A stretch of 64,000 bases of DNA, taken from contig NZ_JAIWPJ010000003.1 in assembly GCF_020515625.1 (NCBI RefSeq), forward strand, positions 496,001 through 560,000. Reading direction: 5' to 3'. The position numbers and the translations under genes were made by a program. Shown here piece by piece: positions 11,145 through 49,706 of the stretch. Below the pieces are notes generated by a model, which saw only the letters and a program-made list of their open reading frames with translations, was not told the DNA's origin and did not search any database. This DNA comes from Natrinema amylolyticum (GTDB taxonomy: Archaea > Halobacteriota > Halobacteria > Halobacteriales > Natrialbaceae). How positions within the stretch are numbered: the first letter of the stretch is position 1; each line of letters starts with the position of its first letter.

Positions 11145-11483
11145 CTACCAGTCGACGCTCAGCGTACCGTCGCCGTGGGGGTCGGGCGCGATCTCCTCGT
11201 CGGTCCGGCGGTCGACGACGTGGATGCAGCCGTCGTCTTTCTTCGCCGGGCAGATCTCCGCCGCGCGGACGTTGTGCTCGAGGTCGTCCTCGTCGATGAA
11301 GTACTCGTTCGGCTGGGCCATACCCGACGCGATGGACATCTCCCAGTTGTCGCTGACTTCGGCGCACTTGCCCGCGCCGAAGCACTTGTTCGCCTCGAAG
11401 ATTATCTTATAGGGCTTCTCCTCGACCGGCGGCGCGTCGCTCGACCCGACGTCGCTGGCGCGCTGAATGCCGTCGTCGCTCAT
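11145..11483 (-). CDS. short ferredoxin, probably single-cluster
   Basis: A 112-residue cytoplasmic protein from ATG 11483. The iron-sulfur motif is C34-x5-C40 (CFGAGKC), then C78-P (AAEICPAK), with a further C86. The C-x5-C...CP spacing, lacking the middle Cys of a normal CxxCxxC motif, is typical of the [3Fe-4S]-type ferredoxins that serve as electron donors to monooxygenases. An acidic N-terminal tail of about 22 residues precedes the fold. It is on the same strand as, and 71 bases downstream of, the SDR gene at 11555-12505. The redox partner is unknown; no P450 is in the window. Confidence 0.85.
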   Translation of the reverse strand: MSDDGIQRASDVGSSDAPPVEEKPYKIIFEANKCFGAGKCAEVSDNWEMSIASGMAQPNEYFIDEDDLEHNVRAAEICPAKKDDGCIHVVDRRTDEEIAPDPHGDGTLSVDW

Positions 11484-22551: not shown

Positions 22552-22590
22552 ATGGTAGGATCCGACACGCGGAGGGACGCCCGTGGCTGA
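22552..22590 (+). CDS. possible 12-residue leader ORF overlapping the thiolase-like start
   Basis: ATG 22552 opens MVGSDTRRDARG and stops at TGA 22588-22590, just inside the thiolase-like gene that begins at GTG 22583 in another frame. The ATG is at the distance from the TATA-like box expected for a leaderless transcript. A GGAGGG lies inside it. Ribosomes finishing this ORF would sit on the thiolase start, so it may couple translation. Existence as a peptide is inference. Confidence 0.3.
   Translation: MVGSDTRRDARG
22571..22576 (+). promoter_or_regulatory. Shine-Dalgarno site deciding the GTG start
   Basis: GGAGGG ends seven bases before GTG 22583 and is complementary to the archaeal 16S rRNA tail. 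It supports translation from a GTG in the absence of an in-frame ATG. Confidence 0.6.
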
Positions 22591-23731
22591 ACCCATCCTC
22601 GCGGGCGTCGCCGAGAGCGACCTCGGCGAGACGCCCGACCGAAACTGGCTGGACAACGCGGCGATCGCGACCGTCCGCGCCCTCGAGGACGCCGGCTGTT
22701 CCCTCGACGACGTCGACGGCGTCGCGGTCGCCGGCGGCGACGACTACATGCCGGCGCTGGTGCTCTCGGAGTACCTCGATCTCGACGAGCCTTCGTTCCT
22801 CGAGGGGACCGAAATCGGCGGCTCGTCGTTCGAGCACTTCTGTGGCCACGTTCGCAGCGCGATGGCTCGCGACGAGGCCGACGTGGTGGTCGTCGCCTAC
22901 GGTTCCACCCGAAAGACGGGGCCAACCGACGAACGGTCGCTCGAGGAGACCCACCCGATCGACGGCTTCGTTCGGCCGACGGGGCTCTTTCGACCGCCCG
23001 GCGCGTACGCGATGGCCGCGCGTCGGCATATGCACGAGTACGGCACCACGGAGGAGCAACTCGCCGAAATCGCCGTTGCGACCCGCGAGTGGGCCGCGAT
23101 GAACCCCGAGGCCGCCCATCGAGAGCCGATCACGGTCGATGACGTCCTCGAGTCGCGGAAAATCGCGGAGCCGTTCAACCTGCTCGACTGTTGTCTCGTC
23201 TCGGACGGCGGCGGCGCGGTCGTGCTCGTGAGCGAGGAGAAGGCCGCAGAACTCGGCGTTCCGGAGATCGCCGTCGCAGGGGTCGCTTCGACGAGCACCC
23301 ATCGCCAGGACATCAGCGAGATGCCCGATATGACGACCACCGGCGCGGCGGTAACGGGACCGAAAGCCTTCGAACAAGCCGGGATTACCCACGACGACGT
23401 CGATGTCGCCGAAATTTACGACTCGTTTACCTACACCGCCCTGGTCACCCTCGAGGATCTGGGCTTCTGCGAGAAGGGCGAGGGCGGCGAGTTCGTCTCG
23501 GGCGGCACCACCGCTCCCGGCGGCGACCTCCCGATGAACACGCAGGGCGGCGGGCTCTCGTACTGCCATCCCGGCCACTTCGGCGTCTTCGTCCTCATCG
23601 AGGCCGCCCGTCAGCTTCGCGGCGACTACGAGGGCGACCGACAGGTCGACGACGCCGAGGTCGCGGTCGCCCACGGTACCGGCGGCTTACTGTCCTCGAG
23701 TAGCACCGTCGTCTTACGGAGGGAATCATGA
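22583..23731 (+). CDS. SCP2/Ltp2-like thiolase-fold protein (probable acyl-CoA aldolase or lipid-transfer type)
   Basis: A 382-residue thiolase-superfamily protein starting with GTG. At the place of the classical nucleophilic Cys it has Ser (GGSSFEHFCGH, S81-S82). The second active-site region reads GGGLSYCHPGHFG (H329), as in the SCP2-thiolase group. EIYDSFTYTALVTLEDLGF (around Y279) matches the region of Ltp2-type steroid side-chain aldolases. In that family the enzyme forms a complex with a DUF35 protein and does retro-aldol cleavage of a hydroxyacyl-CoA. The next gene here is a DUF35 protein overlapping by four bases. Function as an aldolase is inferred; plain lipid transfer or a 3-ketoacyl role remain possible. 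Confidence 0.85.
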   Translation: MAEPILAGVAESDLGETPDRNWLDNAAIATVRALEDAGCSLDDVDGVAVAGGDDYMPALVLSEYLDLDEPSFLEGTEIGGSSFEHFCGHVRSAMARDEADVVVVAYGSTRKTGPTDERSLEETHPIDGFVRPTGLFRPPGAYAMAARRHMHEYGTTEEQLAEIAVATREWAAMNPEAAHREPITVDDVLESRKIAEPFNLLDCCLVSDGGGAVVLVSEEKAAELGVPEIAVAGVASTSTHRQDISEMPDMTTTGAAVTGPKAFEQAGITHDDVDVAEIYDSFTYTALVTLEDLGFCEKGEGGEFVSGGTTAPGGDLPMNTQGGGLSYCHPGHFGVFVLIEAARQLRGDYEGDRQVDDAEVAVAHGTGGLLSSSSTVVLRRES

Positions 23732-24153
23732 GCGCACCGGTCGAGGACCGCCGCGAGGAGTGGGAGGGGCCGGTCCCCGTCCCCACCGGCGCGACGGTCC
23801 CGTTCTGGGCGGGCGCGCTCGAGGGCGAACTGCGCTATCAGGAGTGCGACTGTGGCCACCGCCAACTGTACCCGCGGGCGGTCTGTACCGCCTGCGGGTC
23901 CGAGGACCCACCCTTCGCGGCGAGCGATGGCGTCGGCACGATCTACACCTACACCGTCTGCCACGTCCCCGGCGAACCCGGCTTCGGCGATCGTACGCCC
24001 TACGTCGTCGGCGCGATCGACCTCGCCGAGGGGCCGCGCCTGCTCGCCCTGATCGACGCCGAGCCCGAGTCCCTCGAGATCGGCGCTCGCGTCGCGGTCA
24101 CCTTCTGGCGGGTCTCCGAGGCGGCCGCGATTCCGGTGTTCGTGCCGGAGTGA
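23728..24153 (+). CDS. DUF35 OB-fold/zinc-ribbon acyl-CoA-binding protein
   Basis: A 141-residue protein with an N-terminal helix, a rubredoxin-like zinc ribbon (C40, C42, C53, C56 in CDCGH...CTACG) and a C-terminal OB fold (IYTYTVCHVPGEPGFGDRTP, then VGAIDLAEGPRLLALID). DUF35 proteins are obligate partners of SCP2-type thiolases, for example in archaeal acetoacetyl-CoA thiolase/HMG-CoA synthase assemblies and in ChsH2-Ltp2, where they present the CoA substrate. The ATGA overlap with the thiolase-like gene and a GGAGGG four bases before the start show translational coupling and a likely 1:1 complex. Confidence 0.92.
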   Translation: MSAPVEDRREEWEGPVPVPTGATVPFWAGALEGELRYQECDCGHRQLYPRAVCTACGSEDPPFAASDGVGTIYTYTVCHVPGEPGFGDRTPYVVGAIDLAEGPRLLALIDAEPESLEIGARVAVTFWRVSEAAAIPVFVPE

Positions 24154-37089: not shown

Positions 37090-38340
37090 TTACTCGTCGA
37101 GTTCGTCGATCCGCAGCTCCTCGTCGAACTGCAGGGTGTTTTCGATCTCGGCCTCGTCGACGTCCTCGAAGGCCCAGCGGGCGATCGAGCGGCGGTGGAC
37201 CTCGTCGGCCCCGTCGACGATGCGGAACGCGCGGACGTTCTCGTAGAAGTGGGCGATCGGGAGGTCCTTACCGATCCCGTTGCCGCCACAGCACTGCAGG
37301 GCGAGGTCGATCGTCTCGTTCGTGACGTTCGCGGCGAACATCTTCGACATCGCGACCTCGATGCGGGCGTCGCTGCGGTCGAGTTCGCGCGCGGCGTGGC
37401 GAACCATACAGCGAGTGGCGTGCAGGCGCGTCTCGGCGTCGGCGATGCGGTGGCGCAGCGCCTGCTTCTCCTCGAGTTTCGAGCCGAAGGCCTCGCGCTC
37501 CTGCAGGTAGGCCTTGGCGATGTCGAGCGAGCGCTCGGCCATCCCGGAGTAGCGCATGCAGTGGGTCAGTCGGCCGCCGCCGAGTCGCTTCTGGGCGATG
37601 CGGAACCCCTCTCCTTCCTCCCCGATCGTGTTCTCGACGGGGACGCGGACGTTGTCGAACTTCACTTCGGCGTGGCCGCCCTCGCGCTCGGTGATCCCGT
37701 GACCGCCCAGGTGGGGGATGTTCCGCTGGACTTCGACGCCGTCGGCGTCCCGCGGCACGAGGATGATCGAGGTCCCCTCGTAGGGGTGGGCGTCCAGATC
37801 GGTCCGGGCCATCAGCAGATAGAAGTCGGCGTCCAGCCCGTCCGAGGTCCACCACTTGTGGGCGTTGATGACCCACTCGTCGCCGTCCTTGACGGCGGTG
37901 CTCTGGAGCATCTTGGGGTCCGATCCGGCACCGACCTTGGGCTCGGTCATCGCGAACGCCGAGGAGATCTCGCCCTGCACGAGCGGGCGCAGGTACTCTT
38001 CTTTCTGCTCTTCGGTGCCGGCGAACTCGAGGGTGTGCATGTTCCCCTCCTGGGGCGCGTTGGCCCGGATCGAGATCGCGCCGATCAGCGAGCGGCCGAC
38101 CTGTTCGAACGATGGCAGCATGTCGCTGAAGTCCAGCCCCTGGCCGCCGTACTCCTCGGGGACCTGCGGTGCGAACAGGTCCCGTTCCTTGGCCATCTCC
38201 CACATGTCCTCGATCTCGTCCATCGTGATCTCTTCGTCCGTGGCGAGCGCCTCTCGCTCGCGCGGGATGACGACCTCGTCCATGAAGTCTGCTACGCGGC
38301 CCGCAACCTCTTTCGCTTTCTCGGAGTCGTGGTACTCCAT
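37090..38340 (-). CDS. acyl-CoA dehydrogenase, ACAD10/11-like
   Basis: The product has 416 residues from ATG 38340 (MEYHDSEKAKEV); ATGs at 38349 and 38364 are also in frame. The FAD loop is SAFAMTEPKVGAGSDP, and WVINAHKWWTSDGLDADF follows. The C-terminal active-site region reads FRIVDGADEVHRRSIAR, with Asp where medium-chain enzymes have the catalytic Glu, a feature of the ACAD10/11 branch that acts on long or hydroxylated acyl-CoAs. It lies downstream of thiolase 38492-39640 on the same strand. The substrate class is inference. Confidence 0.92.
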   Translation of the reverse strand: MEYHDSEKAKEVAGRVADFMDEVVIPREREALATDEEITMDEIEDMWEMAKERDLFAPQVPEEYGGQGLDFSDMLPSFEQVGRSLIGAISIRANAPQEGNMHTLEFAGTEEQKEEYLRPLVQGEISSAFAMTEPKVGAGSDPKMLQSTAVKDGDEWVINAHKWWTSDGLDADFYLLMARTDLDAHPYEGTSIILVPRDADGVEVQRNIPHLGGHGITEREGGHAEVKFDNVRVPVENTIGEEGEGFRIAQKRLGGGRLTHCMRYSGMAERSLDIAKAYLQEREAFGSKLEEKQALRHRIADAETRLHATRCMVRHAARELDRSDARIEVAMSKMFAANVTNETIDLALQCCGGNGIGKDLPIAHFYENVRAFRIVDGADEVHRRSIARWAFEDVDEAEIENTLQFDEELRIDELDE

Positions 38341-38491
38341 ATCACCCATGATCGTATACAGCATTGTAAAGCTATAGGTACGCGATCACATAAATTGGCA
38401 ACCGGTGGAGAAACGGTCGGCTCTTCGCCCCCGAGACGCCCGAGTCGGCGCGGTCGGTCGCTCGACGCGAGCCCCGACGACTGCGTCCGGG

Positions 38492-39640
38492 TCAGACTCG
38501 CTCGAGGATCGTCGCGACGCCCTGGCCGAAGCCGATACACATCGCCGAGAGCGCGGTGTCCTGACCGGTCCGCTCGAGTTCGTGGGCCAGCTTGGTCAGC
38601 AACATCGCGCCGGTCGCGCCCAGCGGGTGGCCGTGAGCGATCGCGCCGCCGTTGACGTTGACGTCCTCCCAGGACGCGCCCGTCTCCTCGAGCCAGGCCG
38701 CGACGACCGACGCGAAGGCCTCGTTCACCTCGAAGAGGTCGACGTCGCTGATCGACATGTCGGCCTTCTCGAGGACGTTCTCGGTCGCCGGGATCGGCCC
38801 CTTCAACATCGTCACGGGATCGACACCGACGACTTCGGTCTGGCGGATGCGGGCCATCGGTTCCCAGCCGTGTTCTTCGGCGGCTTCCTCGCTCGTAATG
38901 AGGAGTGCAGCGGAGCCGTCGACGATCCCCGACGAGTTGCCCGGGTGATGGAATCCGTTGCCCTCCTCGCGGAACGACAGCGGCAGTTCGGAGAGCGTCT
39001 CGACGTCAGTCCCCGGTCGGGGATGTTCGTCCTGCTCAACGACCACATCTTCCCCATCGAGCTCGGTTTCGACCGGCGTGATCTGGTCGTCGTAACGACC
39101 CTCGTCCCAGGCCTCCTTCCAGCGGCGCTGGGAGTCGGCGGCGATCTCGTCAAGTTCCGTCCGAGTCAGGTCGTACTCCTCGGCGATGCGCTCTGCGCCC
39201 TCGCCCTGGGTGGTCAGCTCGTCGAAGTGCTCGAAGTACGTGTCCGTCAGTTCGTCGCCGTCCGACCCCATCGGGACGCAAGTCATGTGCTCGACGCCGC
39301 CGGCGATCAGCACGTCGTGCTGACCCGCCATGACGTTCGCGGCGGCGAAGTTGGCCGCCTGCTGGCCCGAGCCGCACATCCGGTTGAGCTGGACCCCGGG
39401 AACGATATCGCCCCAGCCGGCGACCATCGGCGCGAGCCGGGCGATGTTCAGTCCCTGCTCGTCGACCGGCGTCACACAGCCGTAGATGACGTCCTCGATC
39501 GTCTCCGGTTCGAACCCGTTGCGTTCGCGCAGCGCCTCGAGCGGTTCGGCGGCCAGGTCTTGGGGATGCGTGTCTCTGAACGAGCCGTCGCGTTTTCCGA
39601 AGGGCGTCCGGACGGCGTCGACGATGACTGCGGAGTTCAT
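38492..39640 (-). CDS. acetyl-CoA C-acyltransferase (thiolase)
   Basis: A 382-residue thiolase from ATG 39640 (MNSAVIVDAVRTPFGK); the frame reaches ATG 39685 but that tail is not family-like. The catalytic C89 is in LNRMCGSGQQAA, H338 in GHPLGATGA and C368 in CIGFGQG. It cleaves 3-ketoacyl-CoA with CoA. Together with the acyl-CoA dehydrogenase downstream it supplies the first and last step of beta-oxidation. It is divergent from the SDR at 39802. Confidence 0.94.
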   Translation of the reverse strand: MNSAVIVDAVRTPFGKRDGSFRDTHPQDLAAEPLEALRERNGFEPETIEDVIYGCVTPVDEQGLNIARLAPMVAGWGDIVPGVQLNRMCGSGQQAANFAAANVMAGQHDVLIAGGVEHMTCVPMGSDGDELTDTYFEHFDELTTQGEGAERIAEEYDLTRTELDEIAADSQRRWKEAWDEGRYDDQITPVETELDGEDVVVEQDEHPRPGTDVETLSELPLSFREEGNGFHHPGNSSGIVDGSAALLITSEEAAEEHGWEPMARIRQTEVVGVDPVTMLKGPIPATENVLEKADMSISDVDLFEVNEAFASVVAAWLEETGASWEDVNVNGGAIAHGHPLGATGAMLLTKLAHELERTGQDTALSAMCIGFGQGVATILERV

Positions 39641-39773
39641 GACGTACCCCTGAGTATTCCACGATTCGTCATAGAAGTTGTGCATAAATTCGTGTTCGTC
39701 TGTTCTGGACTCTTTCCGGACCGATTCGAGTCGCCGTCAGCAATGTTGTCTGCTACCTCGCCACAATCGTTAA

Positions 39774-39801: not shown

Positions 39802-40587
39802 ATGGATCTCGGAATCAGTGACCGGACCGCCGTGGTCACCGGCGGGGCCGGACGGATCGGAAGCGCCGACTGCCGACTGCTCGCGAACGAAGGGGCGAAC
39901 GTCGTCGTCCTCGACGTCGACGCGGACGGCGCGGCTGAAACTGCCGACGAAATCAACGAGACGGCCGATAGCGGCGAGGCGATGGCGCTGGAGTGCGACC
40001 TCACCGACCGCGAGGACGTCGCCGACTCGATGGCCGAGGTCCGCGACGCCTTCGGCGGCGTGGACATCCTCGTCAACAACGCGGCGATGGTCGACGCGCG
40101 CTCGCGGATCGGCGACTACGACGACGACGTCTGGGACCGCGACGTCGAGATCAACCTGACCGGCACCTACAACATCAGCAAGGAACTATTCCCGCGGATG
40201 TGCGAGCGCGGCTGGGGCCGGATCGTCAACATGTCCTCGATGGCCGGCTGGTACGGCGGCTTCGGCCAGTTCTCCTACTCCGCGACGAAGGCCGCCATGA
40301 TCGGCGTCGGCCGAACGATGGCGCTCGAGGGGGCCCAGTCCGGGGTCACCTCGAACGTCATCGCGCCAAACATCGTCGTCGGCGACTGGGCGGACATGGA
40401 TCCCGACGAACTCCGGGAGAACGTCGACGAGTACTACGCCCGCATCGCCGAGGCGACACCGATGCGCCACCTCGGCACGGAGGAGGACGTCGCCAACATG
40501 GTGACCTACCTCTGTTCGGACCAGGCCTCGTACGTCACCGGGCAGGTGATCGGGGTGACCGGCGGGATCGATCTGTTCAGCTTCTAA
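39802..40587 (+). CDS. SDR family dehydrogenase
   Basis: A 261-residue classical short-chain dehydrogenase with TGGAGRIG (13-20), Ser near 143 and Y157/K161 (YSATK). NNAA replaces the usual NNAG at 90-93. The end reads SYVTGQVIGVTGGIDLFSF. It probably acts on a 3-hydroxyacyl-CoA or hydroxyacid. It is divergent from the thiolase across 161 bases and convergent with the amidase. Confidence 0.9.
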   Translation: MDLGISDRTAVVTGGAGRIGSADCRLLANEGANVVVLDVDADGAAETADEINETADSGEAMALECDLTDREDVADSMAEVRDAFGGVDILVNNAAMVDARSRIGDYDDDVWDRDVEINLTGTYNISKELFPRMCERGWGRIVNMSSMAGWYGGFGQFSYSATKAAMIGVGRTMALEGAQSGVTSNVIAPNIVVGDWADMDPDELRENVDEYYARIAEATPMRHLGTEEDVANMVTYLCSDQASYVTGQVIGVTGGIDLFSF

Positions 40588-40621: not shown

Positions 40622-42061
40622 TCATCGCCCGGGATACGCGTCGCGCCACGGCCGCTGCCGTTCGACGGCGGCGCTGGCCGCGATGACGTCGTTGTCGCCG
40701 TGTCGCCGGCCCGCGATCTGCATTCCGACCGGGAGCCCGTCGACGAACCCGGCCGGGACCGAGGCCGCCGGATGGCCGGTGAGGTTGTACGGCTGCGTGA
40801 GCACCCAGCCGCGGTACGGTTCGATTTCGACGCCGTCGATTTCCTCGGGCTCCTCGCCGTAGGGAAACGGCGTCGTTCCCGCCGTCGCCGTCACGAGGAG
40901 GTCGTACTCCGCGAACAGGTCCGCAAACCCGTCCAGAACCCGCGTCCGAACCACGTCAGCGCGCTTGTACTCCCGCGTCGTCGGCTCGTCGGCGTCCATG
41001 ATGAGGTCTACGAGATACGGCCGCAGGCGGTCGCGGTCCTCGCCTCGCGGGTCGAATCCTTCGTCCTCCAAATTATCGAGCAGCGACTGCCACCGGACGG
41101 TCGCCATGGTGTAGTAGGCGTTTAGGATCTCCTCGTTGTCGTGTCCCAGTTCGGGATCGACCGCGTCGACGGTCGCGCCGGCGCGCTCGAGCGCCGAGAG
41201 GGCGTCCTCGAGCACCTCGCGCACGGCGGGCTCGACGGGATAGGTACCCATGTCCGGACTGTAGGCGATCGTCATCCCGTCGATCGGACGGTCGACGGCG
41301 GCGCGGTACTCGCCCCCCTTCGGGACCGAGAAGGGGTCCCGCGGGTGGGATCCCGCCATCACGTCCAGCGAGAGCGCCGCGTCCTCGACGGTTCGGGCCA
41401 GTGGCCCCTTCGTGGCGAAGGGTGTGTGGCTCGCGAACGCGTTCGGCCGCGTGACGTTCGGGATCACGCCCTGCGTGGGCTTGAGTCCGTACACGCCGCA
41501 GAAGCTCGCCGGAATTCGGACCGAGCCGCCGGCGTCCGAGCCCGGCGCGAGCGGGACGAGTCGGTCGGCCAGCGCCGCGCCGGCCCCGCCGGAGGACCCC
41601 CCCGAGACGCGGTCGGGATCGAACGGCGTCCCCGTCGGCCCGGTGACGCGGTTGTCGGTCGTCGTCCCGAGTCCGAACTCCGGCGTGTTGGTCTTCCCGA
41701 CGACGATCGCGCCTGCCTCCTTCAGCCGGGTGACGAACGGCGAGTCCGACTCAGCGACGCGGTCCTCGAAGAGCAGGGAGCCCGACGTCGTCCGGACGCC
41801 CGCGACGTCGTCGAGGTCTTTGATCGCGACGGGGACGCCGTGTAACGGTCCGAGCGGCTCGCCCTCGGCGATCGCGCGGTCGGCCTCTTCGGCCATCTCG
41901 CGGGCCAGGTCGTCCGTGACGGTGACGAAGGCGTTCGTGCGATCGTTCCGCTCGCGGATCCGCTCGAGGACGGACTCCACGACTTCGGTCGGCGAGCACT
42001 CGCCGTCCCGAATCGCCCTCGCGAGGCCGGCAGCGGTCATGTCTGTGGGGTGTGCGACCAT
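40622..42061 (-). CDS. amidase (amidase signature family)
   Basis: A 479-residue hydrolase with the Ser-cisSer-Lys triad: K81 in VPVAIKDLDD, S156/S157 in GGSSGGAGA and S180 in GSDAGGSVRIP. YGLKPTQG follows. Amidases of this family release ammonia from carboxamides, and the free acid could feed the CoA ligase gene directly upstream on the same strand (131-base gap). GatA is a paralogue, but there are no gatB/C neighbours, so a catabolic amidase is favoured. Start ATG 42061; ATG 42040 is an alternative. Confidence 0.9.
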   Translation of the reverse strand: MVAHPTDMTAAGLARAIRDGECSPTEVVESVLERIRERNDRTNAFVTVTDDLAREMAEEADRAIAEGEPLGPLHGVPVAIKDLDDVAGVRTTSGSLLFEDRVAESDSPFVTRLKEAGAIVVGKTNTPEFGLGTTTDNRVTGPTGTPFDPDRVSGGSSGGAGAALADRLVPLAPGSDAGGSVRIPASFCGVYGLKPTQGVIPNVTRPNAFASHTPFATKGPLARTVEDAALSLDVMAGSHPRDPFSVPKGGEYRAAVDRPIDGMTIAYSPDMGTYPVEPAVREVLEDALSALERAGATVDAVDPELGHDNEEILNAYYTMATVRWQSLLDNLEDEGFDPRGEDRDRLRPYLVDLIMDADEPTTREYKRADVVRTRVLDGFADLFAEYDLLVTATAGTTPFPYGEEPEEIDGVEIEPYRGWVLTQPYNLTGHPAASVPAGFVDGLPVGMQIAGRRHGDNDVIAASAAVERQRPWRDAYPGR

Positions 42062-42192: not shown

Positions 42193-43866
42193 TTACTGCT
42201 GAGGTGCCTGCTCGTCGTCCTCGGCCTCGAGTTCGTCGTCTTCGGTCTCGAGGACCACGTCGAACTGGTCCCGGAGCGTCTTCTTGTCGAACTTTCCGGT
42301 CGAGGTCTTCGGAATCTCGTCGATGAACTCGTAGACATCGGGCAGCCACCACGAGGGGAACGTCTCGCCGAGGTGGGCCTCGAGGTCGTCCGCGGTGAGG
42401 TCGGCCCCGCCCCGCGGAACCACGATCGCCATGGGTCGCTCCTGCCAGCGCTCGTGCTCGACCGCGATGACGGTCGCCTCGGTGACGGCCTCGTGGCCGA
42501 TCAGTTCGTTCTCGAGTTGCACCGAGGAGATCCACTCGCCGCCGGACTTGATCACGTCCTTGTCGCGGTCGACGACGTCGACGTAGCCCAGTTCGTCGCG
42601 GGTGGCGATGTCGCCGGTCCGGAGATAGCCATCGTCGGTGAACGCCTGCTCGTTCTCCTCGGGCCGGTTGTGATAGCCGTCGGTCACCCACGGGCTCCGG
42701 ACCTGCAACTCGCCCATCGTCTCCCCGTCTGCGGGGACCTCCTCGCCGTCCTCGTCGACGATCCGCGTCTTCATCCCCGGAACCGGAAGGCCAGCCTTCG
42801 CGCGGTACTCGTACTGCTCGTCTTTCGGGAGGTCGGCGGCCTCCTTGCGGAGCGTACTGAGGGTACCCAGCGGCGAGGTCTCGGTCATCCCCCAGCCCTG
42901 GATGATCGGCGCGTCGTACTCCTCGTCGTACTTCCGAATGAGCGACTCCGGCGGCGCGGAGCCCCCGACCGTCAGCCGATCGATGTTCGAGATGTCGACC
43001 TCGGGATTCTCGTCCAAGAACTCGGCCATCTCGAGCCAGATGGTCGGCACCGCCGCGGAGAACGTGACGCCTTCCTCGTCGATCAGGCGGGCGATCGCCT
43101 CGGGATCGGTGTGGACCGAGGGGAAGACCTGCTTCGCGCCGACGAACGTCGCGGCGTAGGGCGTCCCCCAGCCGTTGGCGTGGAACATCGGGACCACCGG
43201 CAGGACGACGTCGTCCTCGCCGATCCCGTTGGCGTCCGTATGGCCGCACATGATGCTGTGGAGGTACATCGCCCGGTGGGAGTAGGGGACGCCCTTCGGC
43301 AGTCCCGTGGTCCCCGAGGTGTGACACATGCCGTACTCCGCGTCCTCGTCGATGTCCGGCCACTCGTACTCCGTCGACTGGCCGGAGAGCAGCGACTCGT
43401 AGTCGGTCACCGGCTCGAGGCTCGTCTCGGGCACCTCGTCGTCGAGGACGACGTACTGCTCGACCGTCTCGAGATCGTCGGCGTTGGCCTCGACCTTCTC
43501 GATGAGTTCCGGATCGACGAAGATCACCCGGTCCTCGGCGTCGTCGATCGTGTGGACGAAGTGGTGGTCGGGCAGCCGCATGTTGCACATGTGGATCGAC
43601 CGCCCCGAACACGCCGGGCCGAAGTAGAGTTCGAAGTGTCGGTAGTGGTTCGTCGCGACGACGCCGACCCGGTCGCCGTCGTCGAGCCCGAGGTCGTCGA
43701 GCGCGCCCGCGAGTTGGTTGATTCGTTCGTACGCGTCGGCGTACGTGTACCGGTGCGTGCTCCCGTCGGGCAGTTTCGTCACCAGTTCCCGGTCGGGGAA
43801 CAGGTCGACCGCCCGATCGAGTATCTTGTCAAGCGTTAACTCGACTCCCATCATGGTCGTCTCCAC
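42193..43866 (-). CDS. long-chain-type AMP-forming acyl-CoA ligase
   Basis: A 557-residue enzyme. The P-loop is TSGTTGLPKG (183-192). QGWGMTETSPLG, YLRTGDIATRDELGYVDVVDR and the catalytic Lys in TSTGKFDKKTL are present. The plan matches medium/long-chain fatty acid-CoA ligases of the AlkK type. Acidic C-terminal tail. ATG 43866 is about 25 bases from TATA-like CCTAAATCC, which supports this start over internal ATGs. It belongs to a minus-strand run: R2lox, CaiB, ligase, amidase. Confidence 0.92.
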   Translation of the reverse strand: METTMMGVELTLDKILDRAVDLFPDRELVTKLPDGSTHRYTYADAYERINQLAGALDDLGLDDGDRVGVVATNHYRHFELYFGPACSGRSIHMCNMRLPDHHFVHTIDDAEDRVIFVDPELIEKVEANADDLETVEQYVVLDDEVPETSLEPVTDYESLLSGQSTEYEWPDIDEDAEYGMCHTSGTTGLPKGVPYSHRAMYLHSIMCGHTDANGIGEDDVVLPVVPMFHANGWGTPYAATFVGAKQVFPSVHTDPEAIARLIDEEGVTFSAAVPTIWLEMAEFLDENPEVDISNIDRLTVGGSAPPESLIRKYDEEYDAPIIQGWGMTETSPLGTLSTLRKEAADLPKDEQYEYRAKAGLPVPGMKTRIVDEDGEEVPADGETMGELQVRSPWVTDGYHNRPEENEQAFTDDGYLRTGDIATRDELGYVDVVDRDKDVIKSGGEWISSVQLENELIGHEAVTEATVIAVEHERWQERPMAIVVPRGGADLTADDLEAHLGETFPSWWLPDVYEFIDEIPKTSTGKFDKKTLRDQFDVVLETEDDELEAEDDEQAPQQ

Positions 43867-43928: not shown

Positions 43929-45092
43929 CTAGCGGACGGCCCCCGTCTCGCGGAGGTCGGCCCGCTCGCTCTCGTCGTACCCGACCTCCGCGAGCAGTTC
44001 GTCGGTATGCTCCCCGTGGGCCGGCACCGACTCGTCGCGGTGCTCCGGGACGTTCGTCCCCGTCGCGGGGAAGCCCACCCGCGGCGGCGCGTCGTCCGGC
44101 CGCTCGATCAGCCCGCGGGCCTCGAGCTGCGGGTGTTCGACGGCTTCGGCCGGCGTACACACCGGCCCGGTCATCGTCTCGTCGCTCAGGTCCGCGAGCC
44201 AGGCGTCCCGCGACCGGCTCGCGAACAGCGCCTCGAGTTCCTCGCGGACGGCCGCCAGCTCGGCCGGGTCGTCGGTCCCGTGGGCGTCGATCAGTTCCTC
44301 GCGGTCGACCTCCTCGCAGAAGGCGGTCCAGAACTTCGGCTCGAGCGCGGCGAGAGTGACGTATCGCCCGTCGGCGGTCTCGTAGACGTCGTACCAGGGG
44401 AACTCCCCGGTGAGCGCGGTCTCGCCCGGCCGCGGGTCGTCGCCGGTCAGCGCCCCGTGGGCGATCGCCTGCGAGAAGGAGGCGACCACGTCAGTCATGG
44501 CCACGTCGACGTACTCGCCGCCGTTGCCCAGTTCGCGAGACAGGAGGCCGCCGACGATCGAGAAGGCGGCGAACAGGCCGCCGCCGAGATCGCCGATCTG
44601 GTAGCCCGGTATCTGGGGGGCCATCGCCTCGTCCTCTCGAGTCATGTCGAGCAGGCCCGCGACGCCGACGTAGTTGAGGTCGTGGCCCGCGCGCTCGGCG
44701 TACGGGCCAGTCTGTCCGTAGCCCGACAGCGAGCAGTAGACGAGGTCCTCGTTGTGTTCCGCGAGCGTCTCGTAGTCGATCTCGAGACGCTCGGCGACGC
44801 CGGGCCGGAACTGCTCGAAGACGACGTCCGCCTCCTCGACGAGTCGGTAGAAGGCGGCCCGCCCCGCCCCCGATTTCAGGTCGAGCGCGATGCTCCGCTT
44901 GCCGCGATTGACGCTGTCGAACAGCGCGCCGACGTCTCGTTCAGTCATCGGCGGCGTGTGTCGGGCGTAGTCGCCCGCCTCGGTGTCCTCTACCTTGACG
45001 ACGTCGGCACCCGCGTCGGCGAGCAGTTGCGTCGCGTACGGGCCCGGTAGCAGGCGCGAGAGATCGAGTATTCGAACCGAATCGAGCTGCAT
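43929..45092 (-). CDS. CaiB/BaiF family CoA-transferase
   Basis: A 387-residue family III CoA-transferase, moving CoA between acyl-CoA and a free acid without ATP. The N terminus has RILDLSRLLPGPYATQLLADAGADVVKVE, and the catalytic Asp lies in GEYVDVAMTDVVASF (about 195-209). FPWYDVYETADGRYVTLAALE and the C-terminal FPATGTNVPEHRDES segment are typical. Some relatives are alpha-methylacyl-CoA racemases, which share the fold, so either a transferase or a racemase of branched acyl-CoA is possible. It follows the R2lox gene by 75 bases in the same direction. Confidence 0.9.
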   Translation of the reverse strand: MQLDSVRILDLSRLLPGPYATQLLADAGADVVKVEDTEAGDYARHTPPMTERDVGALFDSVNRGKRSIALDLKSGAGRAAFYRLVEEADVVFEQFRPGVAERLEIDYETLAEHNEDLVYCSLSGYGQTGPYAERAGHDLNYVGVAGLLDMTREDEAMAPQIPGYQIGDLGGGLFAAFSIVGGLLSRELGNGGEYVDVAMTDVVASFSQAIAHGALTGDDPRPGETALTGEFPWYDVYETADGRYVTLAALEPKFWTAFCEEVDREELIDAHGTDDPAELAAVREELEALFASRSRDAWLADLSDETMTGPVCTPAEAVEHPQLEARGLIERPDDAPPRVGFPATGTNVPEHRDESVPAHGEHTDELLAEVGYDESERADLRETGAVR

Positions 45093-45167: not shown

Positions 45168-46100
45168 TCAGTCGTCGCCCTCGAGCGCCACCAGTTCGTC
45201 GACGTCCGGAACGTCCGCCGCGGCGTCCGTGATCTGTCGCATCCGGTCGGTGTGTTTCTCGACCGCGTACTCGGCGAGCTTCCCGTCTTCTAAGCCGACA
45301 CGCTCCTCGGGGTCGTCGGGCTGGAACCGCTCGTCCTCGGTGATCCCCTGTACGAGCGGGACGAGGTCCTCGACCGTCTCCCGGACGAGTTCGGGATCGA
45401 CGCCCTCGGCGATGAGCTTCTTGAGCTGGTTCATCCCGAAGCCGACGTGGCGGCCCTCGTCGCTGCGGATCTTCGTGAAGCCCTGGACGAGCCCCGGCAG
45501 ATGCGGGAGGTCCTCGAAGTCGCCGCCGTAGGAGGTCTGCATCCCGTAGTAGCCCGTCTGCGCGAGGATGCCCTCGACCGTGAGGTGATAGTGGCAGTAC
45601 GCTTTCGCCCGATTTTCGGGGGTGTCCTCCTCGAGCAGCCGGAACTGCGCCTTCCGATTGCGGTCGAACAGCTCGATGTACGGGTCGTTGAACCACCGGT
45701 CGTGGCGGGGGTCCGATCGCTCCCAGCCCAGTTCGTCCTCGACCGTCCAAACGACTTCCCGCCAGTAGCGGTCGAAGAAGTCCGCGTGTTTCGCCTCCTC
45801 GTACAGCTGCGTCGTCAGGAACAGCTGATCGTCGATGTCGTCGAGAACCGCTCCGAGCGGTGCGAGGTCCTCGGTGACGGCGTCCTCGCCCGCCCCGAAC
45901 TTCGCGATGCCGTTGAGCGTGCCGTACCACGATTCTCGGTCGTACTCGTCCGAGGCCTCGATATGGGACAGCAGGTTTTCGACGTCCCGCTCGAGGTCGA
46001 TCTCGCCGGGATCCCAGTGGCGTTCGACCGCATTGCGATAGTAACGGTTCGACCTGGACTCCCGATCCATCATCTCGGTCGGCGTGTACTCAGTTCCCAT
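45168..46100 (-). CDS. R2-like ligand-binding oxidase (R2lox) family protein
   Basis: A 310-residue ferritin-like protein, often mislabelled as ribonucleotide reductase small subunit. Six metal ligands can be placed: E72, E102, H105 (EEAKH), E176, E215 and H218 (DEGRH). V75 (EDAV, three after the first ligand) and Y171 (five before E176) match the Val and Tyr that form an ether crosslink in R2lox, which uses a Mn/Fe site and binds a fatty-acid-like ligand. There is no R1 gene nearby. Placement at the head of a run with CaiB and a fatty acyl-CoA ligase supports an oxidation of a lipid-like substrate, by inference. Confidence 0.85.
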   Translation of the reverse strand: MGTEYTPTEMMDRESRSNRYYRNAVERHWDPGEIDLERDVENLLSHIEASDEYDRESWYGTLNGIAKFGAGEDAVTEDLAPLGAVLDDIDDQLFLTTQLYEEAKHADFFDRYWREVVWTVEDELGWERSDPRHDRWFNDPYIELFDRNRKAQFRLLEEDTPENRAKAYCHYHLTVEGILAQTGYYGMQTSYGGDFEDLPHLPGLVQGFTKIRSDEGRHVGFGMNQLKKLIAEGVDPELVRETVEDLVPLVQGITEDERFQPDDPEERVGLEDGKLAEYAVEKHTDRMRQITDAAADVPDVDELVALEGDD

Positions 46101-46112
46101 ACCACACGGTAT
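46099..46112. promoter_or_regulatory. palindrome at the R2lox start
   Basis: ATACC-ACAC-GGTAT overlaps the start codon and predicted transcription start of the R2lox gene. It is a perfect five-base inverted repeat and a candidate repressor site. Confidence 0.4.
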
Positions 46113-46121
46113 ACGGGGTGA

Positions 46122-46129
46122 CTATTAAA
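46122..46129 (-). promoter_or_regulatory. TATA box of the R2lox operon
   Basis: TTTAATAG on the minus strand is centred 26 bases upstream of the ATG at 46100, giving a leaderless transcript. Confidence 0.6.
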
Positions 46130-46216
46130 TGTGCAGGCGTTGAGACGTCCGCCGGCACCCCCGACGTTCGCTCCGGGTTGACAAGAACTAAGTCGATTCT
46201 CGTGAAGGATGGTGCC

Positions 46217-46954
46217 ATGGCACAACAGAGTGCTGCCGTCGTCGGTGGCGGCATCATGGGCGCCGGTATCGCGCAGGTACTCGCACGGAACGGCTACGAG
46301 GTGGCCGTCCGCGAGATCAACGAGGAGCTGGCCGACGAGGCCCGCGAGCGCGTGATCTCGGGCAACTACGGCCTCGAGGACGCCGTCGAGGGCGGCTATC
46401 TCTCGGAGGAGGAGAAAGACGAGGTCCTCGATCGGATGACGTTCACGACGGACCTCGACGCGGCGACCGACGGCACCGACTTCACAATCGAGGCGGTCAC
46501 GGAGGACCTGGCGATCAAGGGGCAGGTCTTCCGTGATCTCGACGAGGTGACCGACGATCAGCCGCTGTACTCGAACACGAGCGGGTTCGCCGTCACATCG
46601 ATCGCCAACGCCGTCGACGACCCCTCGCGGGTCGCGGTGACGCACTTCTTCAACCCGGTCGCGGTCATGGACATGGTCGAGATCGTGCAAGCGCCCGAGA
46701 CCGACGAGGCCGTCGTCGAGCGCGCCGAGGAACTCGTCGACGAACTCGGGAAGACGCGCGTCACCATCGACGACGACCCCGGCTCCTACGGCTTCCTCGC
46801 GAACCGCTGTCACGCGGCGATGCGCGAAGAGGCCAAGAAGATCGTCGACGAGGGGATCGCCACGGAGGAACAGGTCGACAAGGCGCTCGAGGACGGCTAC
46901 AACCTTCCCGTCGGCCCGTTCTCGCTGGCCGGCATCGGCGAGGAATGGGACTGA
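46217..46954 (+). CDS. 3-hydroxyacyl-CoA dehydrogenase, short form
   Basis: The product has 245 residues from ATG 46217; ATG 46118 would add 33 residues of poor quality. It oxidises 3-hydroxyacyl-CoA to 3-ketoacyl-CoA with NAD+. VVGGGIMGAGIAQ (8-20) binds NAD. S119, H143 and N146 (THFFNPVAVMDMVEIV) form the active site, and the C-terminal domain starts at FLANRCHAAM. The protein ends GPFSLAGIGEEWD, about 35-45 residues earlier than the usual 280-290. It may be a natural short form or may have lost its end next to the repeat region that follows. Confidence 0.88.
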   Translation: MAQQSAAVVGGGIMGAGIAQVLARNGYEVAVREINEELADEARERVISGNYGLEDAVEGGYLSEEEKDEVLDRMTFTTDLDAATDGTDFTIEAVTEDLAIKGQVFRDLDEVTDDQPLYSNTSGFAVTSIANAVDDPSRVAVTHFFNPVAVMDMVEIVQAPETDEAVVERAEELVDELGKTRVTIDDDPGSYGFLANRCHAAMREEAKKIVDEGIATEEQVDKALEDGYNLPVGPFSLAGIGEEWD

Positions 46955-47386: not shown

Positions 47387-48184
47387 TTACTTCCCTTCGA
47401 ACTCGGGCTCGCGGTCCTCGGAGAACGCCGCCGCGCCTTCGGCGTGGTCCTCGGTCTCGAGGAGGCCCTCGAAGAGCTGGCGGTCGTACTCCAGCCCCTC
47501 CACGAGCCCGCTATGAACGGCCATGTCGGCGGATTTCTTAATCGCCTGGACGGCCAGCGGTGCCTGGCCGGCCAGATCGGTGACGAACGCGTCGACCTCG
47601 TCTTCGAACTCGTCGTCGGCGTAGACGTGGTTGACGATGCCTTCCTCGCCCGCGCGCTCAGCGGAGATGTGCTCGCCGGTCATCGCCAGCTCCTTTGCGA
47701 CCGCGGGGCCGGCCAGCTTCGTGACGTACTGGACGCCGCCGGCACCGGGGAGGATGCCAAGGTTCACTTCGGGGAAGCCGAACGTCGAGCCCTCGCTGGC
47801 CAGCCGGAAGTCACAGGCCAGCGCGGTCTCCAAGCCGCCGCCGAGACAGTAGCCGTCGATCTTCGCGATGACGGGCGCGGGGAAGTCCCGGATGAAATCG
47901 TAGTGCGAGCGGGCCGAGGAGCCGCCGGCCGACTCCTCGGAGAAACCGCCGATGTCCGCGCCCGCACAGAACGCCTTCTCGCCGGCCCCCTCGAGCACGA
48001 CGGCTCGCAGCGCGACCCCGTCGCGTTCCTCGTTTCGCTCCTCGAGCAGTTCGAGCCCCGCGACAATGTCGTCTCTCAACTGCCCGTTCAGCGCGTTCAA
48101 CGCGTCCGGACGGTTCATCGTGAGCGTGCCGACGCCGCGCTCGTCATCGTACGCTACCAGGACCGTTTCGAGTTCGTCGTCCAT
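47387..48184 (-). CDS. enoyl-CoA hydratase/isomerase (crotonase family)
   Basis: A 265-residue crotonase. The oxyanion-hole segments are AFCAGADIGGF (71-81) and GYCLGGGLETALACD (111-125). The two catalytic glutamates fit E119 and E139 (FGFPEVNLGILPGAGG), so it should hydrate trans-2-enoyl-CoA to the 3S-hydroxyacyl-CoA. This product suits the 3-hydroxyacyl-CoA dehydrogenase encoded convergently at 46217. Length and ends are complete. Confidence 0.93.
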   Translation of the reverse strand: MDDELETVLVAYDDERGVGTLTMNRPDALNALNGQLRDDIVAGLELLEERNEERDGVALRAVVLEGAGEKAFCAGADIGGFSEESAGGSSARSHYDFIRDFPAPVIAKIDGYCLGGGLETALACDFRLASEGSTFGFPEVNLGILPGAGGVQYVTKLAGPAVAKELAMTGEHISAERAGEEGIVNHVYADDEFEDEVDAFVTDLAGQAPLAVQAIKKSADMAVHSGLVEGLEYDRQLFEGLLETEDHAEGAAAFSEDREPEFEGK

Positions 48185-48638: not shown

Positions 48639-49706
48639 TCAGAACGCTCGGAGGTCCTCGAGGACGGCCTGCGCGCTGCCGTCCGAAATGACCTCGCGGG
48701 CCCGCTCGAGCCCGTCGTCTAAGCTGTCGACGTCTTGGCGGGCGTACATCCGGAACGCGCCGTTGAGGGCGATGGCGTCGGCGAAGTGGTCCTCGCGGTC
48801 GCCGGCGAGCACCTCCTCGGTGATCGTCGCCGAATCGGCGGTGACGTCGTCGACCTCGAGGTCCTCGTTTTCCATGTCCATGCCGTACTCGGCGGTCTCG
48901 ATCTCGTAGTCCGCTAACTCCTCGCCCTCGTCCCACTCGGCCACCTTCGTATAGCCGGGACGGATGTCGTCGTAGCCCTCCATCCCCTGGAAGAAGATGG
49001 CGCGGGAGTAGTCGAGCTGCGCGCTCTCGTCCATGAGATCGGTCATCTTCTTTGCGAAGGTGAGGTGGTAGAACGAGCCCAGGTGGACGTCGGCGTTCGC
49101 GGGGTTGGCGACGGTTTCGACCGTGTTGACGAACGTCCGCACGCCCATCTCGTCACGTCGGTCATAGAGGTCGTCGACGCCGGGGTTGAACTTCGGCTGG
49201 TAGTAGAAGCCGAAGCCGGTGTCGTCGACCATGTCCGCGCTCTCGTCGGGCTCGAGTTCCGTCCGGACGCCGAGTTCGTCGAGGACGTGCTTGTACGCCG
49301 TGGCCTTCTGCGTCGGAACGCGGTCGCCGGAGTGGGCGACGACGGGGGTCCCCGCGGCGGCGGCGACGATGCCGGCACCGACGCCGAGGACGGCCGAACT
49401 GTGCTTGCCGTCGTAGTTCGCGCCGCAGTCGACCGGATCGCAGTCCGGCTCGGCAGTCACGACCGACTCCTCGCGCATGACGTCGGTGTAGGCCGCCAGC
49501 TCCTCGGGGTTGTTGCGCTTCCAGCGGTTGGCCAGCCAGAACGCGCCGAGCGTGGTCGCGTCCGGTTCGCCCGCCAGAATCCGCTGGAAGGCCTCGCGGG
49601 CCTGCTCGCGGTTCATGTCGTCGGCCGATTTGGGACCCGAGCCGACGACCTCCGTCATCAGGCGTTTCAACGGCCATTCGCCGAATTCCTGCGTTGCCTG
49701 CGCCAT
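48639..49706 (-). CDS. anthranilate phosphoribosyltransferase-like protein (TrpD paralogue)
   Basis: A 355-residue protein from ATG 49706. It has the two-domain plan of nucleoside phosphorylase/TrpD proteins: a helical N domain (NREQAREAFQRILAGEPDATTLGAFWLANRWK) and an alpha/beta domain (SSAVLGVGAGIVAAAAGTPV, then AHSGDRVPTQKATAYKHVLDELGV). The PRPP-binding GTGGD loop of true TrpD is replaced by DCGANYDGK, so anthranilate phosphoribosyl transfer is doubtful. No other trp gene is near. It may act on another amine or a nucleoside; function unproven. Confidence 0.8.
   Translation of the reverse strand: MAQATQEFGEWPLKRLMTEVVGSGPKSADDMNREQAREAFQRILAGEPDATTLGAFWLANRWKRNNPEELAAYTDVMREESVVTAEPDCDPVDCGANYDGKHSSAVLGVGAGIVAAAAGTPVVAHSGDRVPTQKATAYKHVLDELGVRTELEPDESADMVDDTGFGFYYQPKFNPGVDDLYDRRDEMGVRTFVNTVETVANPANADVHLGSFYHLTFAKKMTDLMDESAQLDYSRAIFFQGMEGYDDIRPGYTKVAEWDEGEELADYEIETAEYGMDMENEDLEVDDVTADSATITEEVLAGDREDHFADAIALNGAFRMYARQDVDSLDDGLERAREVISDGSAQAVLEDLRAF

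Follow-up and report, generated by a model that had tools for sequence, protein, structure and literature searches.

An R2lox-family gene beside an alpha-methylacyl-CoA racemase homologue in a Natrinema fatty-acid gene run

The locus and its gene run

The window analysed here, a stretch of 64,000 nucleotides from the haloarchaeon Natrinema amylolyticum, carries on its minus strand an open reading frame for which a sequence-only reading had proposed a complete R2lox-like di-metal oxidase, lying in a run of fatty-acid genes. The reading frame is indeed complete, with an ATG start, and the run does exist and is kept across Natrinema loci. Its features, numbered from the first letter of the window, are as follows:

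37090..38364, minus strand: acyl-CoA dehydrogenase
38492..39685, minus strand: acetyl-CoA C-acyltransferase (thiolase), TIGR01930 above cut-off
39802..40587, plus strand: FabG-like short-chain dehydrogenase/reductase, which stays near R2lox in several loci
40622..42061, minus strand: amidase, PF01425
42193..43866, minus strand, start perhaps at 43854: long-chain fatty acyl-CoA ligase, NF004837 at 567.9 bits (cut-off 476), PDB 1ult at E = 3.9e-159
43929..45092, minus strand: alpha-methylacyl-CoA racemase (AMACR/MCR) homologue of the CaiB/family III fold, 387 aa, PF02515
45168..46100, minus strand: R2lox gene, 310 aa, ATG start
45447..45887, minus strand: codons of the six metal ligands, V75, Y171, A180 and Y184
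46101..46216: divergent intergenic stretch of 116 bp, presumed control region by position only
46217..46954, plus strand: 3-hydroxyacyl-CoA dehydrogenase, 245 aa, PF02737/PF00725, divergent from R2lox
47387..48184, minus strand: enoyl-CoA hydratase

The CaiB-family gene, the acyl-CoA ligase and the amidase are co-directional with R2lox, as had been read from the sequence, and follow it with gaps of 75, 62 and 131 bp, respectively. From its position only, the divergent stretch is presumed to control both R2lox and the 3-hydroxyacyl-CoA dehydrogenase. A truncation of the latter, in which PF00725 is half covered, was considered and dropped, since its homologue in locus L009 is also 245 aa long.

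Among the neighbours of R2lox at 37-50 kb, we identified neither a ferredoxin nor a reductase, nor an alcohol or aldehyde dehydrogenase (ADH, ALDH) of the alkane type, only one short-chain dehydrogenase/reductase of unassigned role; the nearest ferredoxin-like ORF in the window is at 11145. A search of the host genome for AlkB-type (PF00487) genes gave none. The island of acyl-CoA genes is broad, extending from about 5 to 48 kb. In its distal part (4951-28200) lie a thiolase, the ferredoxin-like protein (11145), an acyl-CoA dehydrogenase (17558), a MaoC hydratase and two AMP-ligases, and at 22583-24153 a thiolase-like protein is accompanied by an OB-fold partner of the ChsH2 type. On the other side, a TrpD-like phosphoribosyltransferase homologue (48639-49706, scoring under the cut-off of its model) accompanies the run in Natrinema loci.

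Family identity of the 310-aa protein

All six metal ligands (E72, E102, H105, E176, E215 and H218) and both crosslink residues (V75 and Y171) are present at the positions first assigned to them. The protein matches the PDB sequence 4hr0, R2loxI of Geobacillus kaustophilus (GkR2loxI), with an E-value of 1.9e-24, so the resemblance is not due to chance. In the HMMER alignment, E72/V75/E102/H105/Y171/E176/E215/H218 correspond to E69/V72/E102/H105/Y162/E167/E202/H205 of GkR2loxI (R2loxI numbering from PMC10867098, a 14-residue offset of the deposited 4hr0 chain being allowed for). Y171 lies five residues before the third Glu (E176), a spacing that had been likened to that of characterised R2lox proteins, and it does align with GkY162. 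Two further positions are informative. The protein has A180 where R2lox has the ligand-tunnel Ala (GkA171) and where a Phe is conserved in R2 proteins (PMC6399176), and Y184 at the place of the cavity-lining Tyr of R2lox (GkY175; PMC4118035). These markers discriminate, since an R2-like protein of Streptomyces taken as a contrast sequence has G, F and Q in place of the Val and both Tyr.

In the NCBIfam search, the top five models are all R2lox, the best scoring 136 bits where the curated cut-off is 194; the other two R2lox-like proteins encoded in the same genome also fall under the NCBIfam R2lox cut-offs, from which we infer that these models were trained mainly on bacteria. The AlphaFold2 model, built from an alignment of 54 sequences, has a pLDDT of 92.2 and a pTM of 0.90. 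Foldseek places R2lox structures at ranks 1-34 and the first ribonucleotide reductase (RNR) R2, that of Chlamydia, at rank 35. With VIA-align, R2lox entries fill the first 27 rows, at Z values between 29.9 and 33.2, the best at an rmsd of 1.7 over 261 residues, against a best Z of 26.6 for an RNR R2; the fold, as modelled, appears closer to the R2lox crystal structures than to any RNR R2. Taken together, sequence, diagnostic residues and predicted fold make it nearly certain that the protein belongs to the R2lox family, and from its residues it should bind an Mn/Fe (or Fe/Fe) pair.

The alternative, an RNR R2 working with a distant R1, could draw on a weak PF00268 match (27 bits, below cut-off) and on public records, which label homologues “ribonucleoside-diphosphate reductase”. 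The sequence-only reading had seen no RNR large subunit nearby and had named a distant R1 as one of the cases that would overturn it. We found no class I R1 gene near R2lox or in the host genome (G000; 4.71 Mb, 99.98% complete), whose sole large-subunit (PF02867) gene is a class II (B12) NrdJ, with TIGR02504 above cut-off. An R2 identity was, thus, rejected as most improbable, given the lack of a class I R1, the presence of V75/Y171, A180 instead of the Phe conserved in R2 proteins, and a predicted structure nearer R2lox than any R2.

The R2lox family is ordinary among haloarchaea, with a match in 64 of the 195 genomes of this order (28 of 66 genera), and the host genome itself holds three R2lox-like genes: the one at 45168-46100, a 58% paralogue and a 33% one. 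We extracted 125 proteins from haloarchaeal loci, 104 of them distinct, in order to follow the conservation of the residues. E72 and V75 are kept in 103 of these 104 homologues, with one gap at both, and the other six ligand and crosslink residues are invariant (104/104). When three haloarchaeal plasmid proteins are added, the position of A180 is Ala in 105 and that of Y184 is Tyr in 99 of the 107 sequences. The tree was built from 90 of 113 proteins, after removal of those at least 93% identical to a kept row; the R2lox of the window falls in a Natrialbaceae clade of 20 rows (100/100), nested in a haloarchaeal group of 64 rows (100/99), and two more haloarchaeal clades, C and D, stand apart.

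The racemase homologue and its linkage to R2lox

The product of 43929-45092, which had been called a CaiB-type transferase, does have the CaiB-family fold (PF02515, 333.8 bits), and transferase models and structures score on it as well as racemases overall; its active site, H137/D168/E251, is of the racemase type. Indeed, the alignment to the M. tuberculosis racemase MCR (1x74) places H137 on H126 and D168 on D156, two of the MCR catalytic residues H126, D156 and E241 (PMC10967716), and E251 was placed by a motif resembling the E241 region. At the catalytic His position, a Tyr is found both in the formyl-CoA transferase 10uh and in the CaiB-family protein 4ed9. Within the host genome, the H/D/E triad occurs in two of the seven PF02515 genes (this one and one 67% copy), while the remaining five have F or Y at the His site and N or S at the Asp site. 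Across the R2lox-linked copies, the His and the Asp are each kept in 16 of 16 and the Glu in 14 of 16, with two gaps. We, therefore, rejected a CoA-transferase role on the basis of these racemase-type active-site residues, and an alpha-methylacyl-CoA racemase homologue is the better reading of the product. Enzymes of the AMACR type convert the epimers of 2-methylacyl-CoA into one another and so let beta-oxidation proceed (PMC12682127), and one has been linked to the breakdown of methyl-branched alkanes in Mycobacterium sp. P101 (the title of a reference within PMC10967716).

The racemase gene directly follows R2lox in all 11 Natrinema loci (the window and L008-L017), in which five different kinds of gene come after the racemase (a ligase, a thiolase, either of two acyl-CoA dehydrogenases or an opposed gene) and three kinds lie upstream of R2lox. 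Elsewhere in clade A, it adjoins R2lox in 2 of 20 loci (L023 and L094) and lies 4.5 kb off in L022; the pair is, therefore, fixed in one genus and loose elsewhere. Ligase remnants are present in L014 and L016, together with a remnant (L014) or a split copy (L016) of the 3-hydroxyacyl-CoA dehydrogenase, and the Natrinema loci L014, L016 and L017 suggest that parts of the run were lost while R2lox and the racemase were retained. Two genomes of the same genus (G164 and G193) keep the racemase without a close (at least 80%) R2lox homologue.

On a wider scale, R2lox is found in 64, the racemase family in 52 and both in 38 of the 195 genomes, where “racemase” means similarity at E <= 1e-110, the triad itself having been checked in the 16 R2lox-linked copies and in the host's own genome. 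With the own genus left out, 27 genomes have both, 14 the racemase only, 26 R2lox only and 117 neither (odds ratio 8.7); the same test for the ligase (8/18/45/113) gives an odds ratio of 1.1, that is, no excess. Still outside the genus, R2lox and the racemase are less than 20 kb apart in 6 of the 27 genomes with both (two of the six being of the same genus), where about 0.6 would be expected for 57 R2lox genes.

At least one acyl-CoA family of the window type is found within 7 kb of R2lox in 11 of 11 Natrinema loci, 12 of 17 other clade-A loci, 0 of 3 basal clade-A loci, 6 of 24 loci of the clade-B bin, 7 of 21 of the Halorientalis type, 2 of 8 of clade C and 5 of 12 of clade D, against 4 of 40 random regions of Natrialbaceae genomes with the same 7-kb reach. 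For these counts, the loci were sorted into groups manually, from their numbers; the “B” bin is loose, two of its members, L077 and L078, lying near clade A in the tree (as L059 and L060 there), and L027/L096 and L093/L138, whose contigs are of equal length, are seemingly the same genome twice. The loci are related and their counts are, therefore, not independent; as the co-occurrence, linkage and enrichment tests all ignore shared ancestry, we take them as supportive, not as proof.

Other haloarchaeal R2lox genes have surroundings of their own. In clade D (L114-L117, L119, L121, L125-L130; R2lox at ~8-9 kb), an acidic protein of 86-100 aa directly follows R2lox in 12 of 12 loci and a 2Fe-2S ferredoxin then follows in 9 of 12, with SCP2 and acyl-CoA dehydrogenase genes often near. 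This ferredoxin is possibly a dedicated electron donor, a partner that would fit a multi-turnover oxygenase. A methane-monooxygenase-like effector was considered for the small protein and found no support (model pLDDT 61.6, best PDB E-value 0.025). The divergent R2lox of Haloferax mediterranei pHME505, with Gly and Phe at the A180 and Y184 positions, lies near phaC in a cluster (L139:6980-12602) with genes for an acyl carrier protein, a ketoacyl synthase, a malonyltransferase and FabG, and its role is possibly biosynthetic. HTH_10 regulators (L033:7197-7904, L080:9074-9709, L101:7325-7978 and L115:7257-7913) stand directly upstream of several other haloarchaeal R2lox genes.

Proposed function and known systems

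The sequence-only reading had held that R2lox proteins usually lack a substrate context; several bacterial loci do not bear this out. GK2771, which codes for GkR2loxI, sits in a large alkane/beta-oxidation cluster with ADH, ALDH and acyl-CoA ligase genes, and the protein has been reported as an alkane monooxygenase (PMC10867098). Six bacterial regions were chosen among the R2lox matches in PLSDB. Those of Rhodococcus opacus and R. oxybenzonivorans carry R2lox with a ferredoxin, an FAD oxidoreductase, an NDMA-dependent ADH, an ALDH, SCP2 and an acyl-CoA ligase; a Rhodococcus sp. 008 copy lies with a ferredoxin, an oxidoreductase and an ADH, a Mycobacterium plasmid copy with a ligase and an ADH, and that of Geobacillus pHTA426 with an ADH, an ALDH and an adenylating enzyme. 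The chosen Streptomyces region was set aside, its protein not being an R2lox (G, F and Q at the marker positions). On the Rhodococcus plasmids (L133:5768-13186, L134:4312-14614), the genes around R2lox, FdxA ferredoxin included, resemble a complete oxygenase pathway. For haloarchaea, an R2lox gene has been reported as hexadecane-induced (Kumar 2020, as cited by PMC10867098), and haloarchaea are reported to degrade pristane (PMC6140281, PMC4005966).

We, thus, propose tentatively, and with a little less than even confidence, that the R2lox of the window is a monooxygenase, that it hydroxylates a long hydrophobic substrate, probably a methyl-branched or isoprenoid chain, and that the product enters beta-oxidation. 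The Mn/Fe (or Fe/Fe) pair of the ferritin-like helical bundle would activate O2, an internal Val75-Tyr171 ether link would be formed by the protein, and the long hydrophobic ligand would be held in a channel leading to the metals. Once hydroxylated, the chain would be oxidised to the acid, which the neighbouring long-chain acyl-CoA ligase would join to CoA; the adjacent racemase would epimerise its 2-methyl centre, and the acyl-CoA dehydrogenase, enoyl-CoA hydratase, 3-hydroxyacyl-CoA dehydrogenase and thiolase nearby would shorten it. The electron donor, for which there is no gene beside R2lox, would be encoded away from it. A methyl-branched substrate is put forward because of the racemase alone; the monooxygenase feeding beta-oxidation is suggested by analogy with the Geobacillus work and by the partner genes in relatives.

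The fixed racemase of Natrinema, the co-occurrence odds ratio of 8.7 and the enrichment in acyl-CoA genes are supportive of this proposal. Against it stand the adjacency of the racemase at no more than 2 of the 20 clade-A loci outside Natrinema, the basal clade-A loci without window-type acyl-CoA genes in a 7-kb reach (0/3), the absence of any ferredoxin, reductase, ADH or ALDH identified adjacent to R2lox, and the racemase of G164 and G193 without a close R2lox; in addition, the alkane loss reported for GkR2loxI was seen in crude lysate and was only partly reduced in the E202A/H205A double mutant (PMC10867098). The same GkR2loxI cluster and activity (PMC10867098) speak for an n-alkane hydroxylase, with the racemase serving unrelated branched acids in a general fatty-acid island. 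The ligase, which resembles a long-chain fatty-acid ligase, the lack of a PF00487 (AlkB-type) gene found in the genome and the breadth of the acyl-CoA island (~5 to 48 kb) would all agree with it. This leaves unexplained, however, both the racemase as sole fixed neighbour in Natrinema and a co-occurrence excess that concerns the racemase and not the ligase, and we consider it fairly unlikely.

In R2lox structures, a fatty acid is bound at the metals, and a role as desaturase has been proposed (PMC4118035); the enzyme of the window could, thus, oxidise a fatty acid, either free or bound to CoA (by alpha- or beta-hydroxylation or by desaturation), rather than a hydrocarbon, for lipid remodelling or for the removal of a blocking methyl. 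The fatty-acid-synthase-like cluster of the H. mediterranei homologue would fit such a role, but the run in the window looks catabolic rather than biosynthetic, and we regard this reading as unlikely. Less likely again, and in our view quite improbable, is a single-turnover metalloprotein (a ligand carrier, a sensor or an oxygen/metal stress protein) that makes only its own crosslink, with lipid genes as chance neighbours. Papers of 2014 and 2019 gave the physiological role of R2lox as unknown (PMC4118035, PMC6399176), acyl-CoA genes are lacking at many clade-B loci and at all three basal loci of clade A, and several homologues adjoin HTH_10 regulators instead; yet chance neighbours would sit poorly with the enrichment over random regions, with the ADH, ALDH and ligase genes of the bacterial contexts, and with the ferredoxin beside a distant haloarchaeal clade.

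Returning to the monooxygenase proposal, a more specific form of it, which we put forward as an unlikely conjecture, would place the R2lox/racemase pair at the start of a haloarchaeal pathway for the breakdown of methyl-branched isoprenoid chains, the Mn/Fe oxidase being the missing first oxygenase. Pristane-type hydrocarbons or the phytanyl chains of archaeal membrane lipids would be its candidate substrates. If true, R2lox would be a candidate first enzyme of haloarchaeal hydrocarbon or isoprenoid breakdown, perhaps of archaeal membrane-lipid recycling. The role of R2lox has been open since its discovery, with one group reporting alkane hydroxylation. A lipid context was already known for the family; what is new is the racemase beside R2lox, a testable link which, being fixed next to a haloarchaeal R2lox, points to a specific class of substrates. 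Our literature search, which left most subscription journals outside, found no publication linking a haloarchaeal R2lox to a racemase.

Among known systems, GkR2loxI (4hr0) shares with the protein of the window the six ligands, the Val/Tyr pair, the tunnel Ala, the cavity Tyr, the fold (Z ~33) and beta-oxidation genes nearby, although identity in the structural alignment is about 30%; the Geobacillus cluster has an ADH and an ALDH near R2lox, whereas the window has a racemase and an amidase and no ADH or ALDH identified. The R2lox proteins of M. tuberculosis (3ee4, 4ac8), Saccharopolyspora (7qbp) and Sulfolobus (6qrz, 7qbk) are relatives in both fold and sequence, at 24-28% identity in structural alignments. 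The class Ic R2 of Chlamydia trachomatis (1syy, 4m1i) has the same ferritin-like fold but belongs to the next-best group (Z ~26, 16% identity), and there is no R1 partner for such a protein in the host. As for the neighbouring gene, MCR of M. tuberculosis (1x74) resembles it in the H126 and D156 equivalents and in a Glu within an E241-like motif; unlike MCR, the window homologue is archaeal and linked to R2lox, and its racemase activity is a prediction from these residues.
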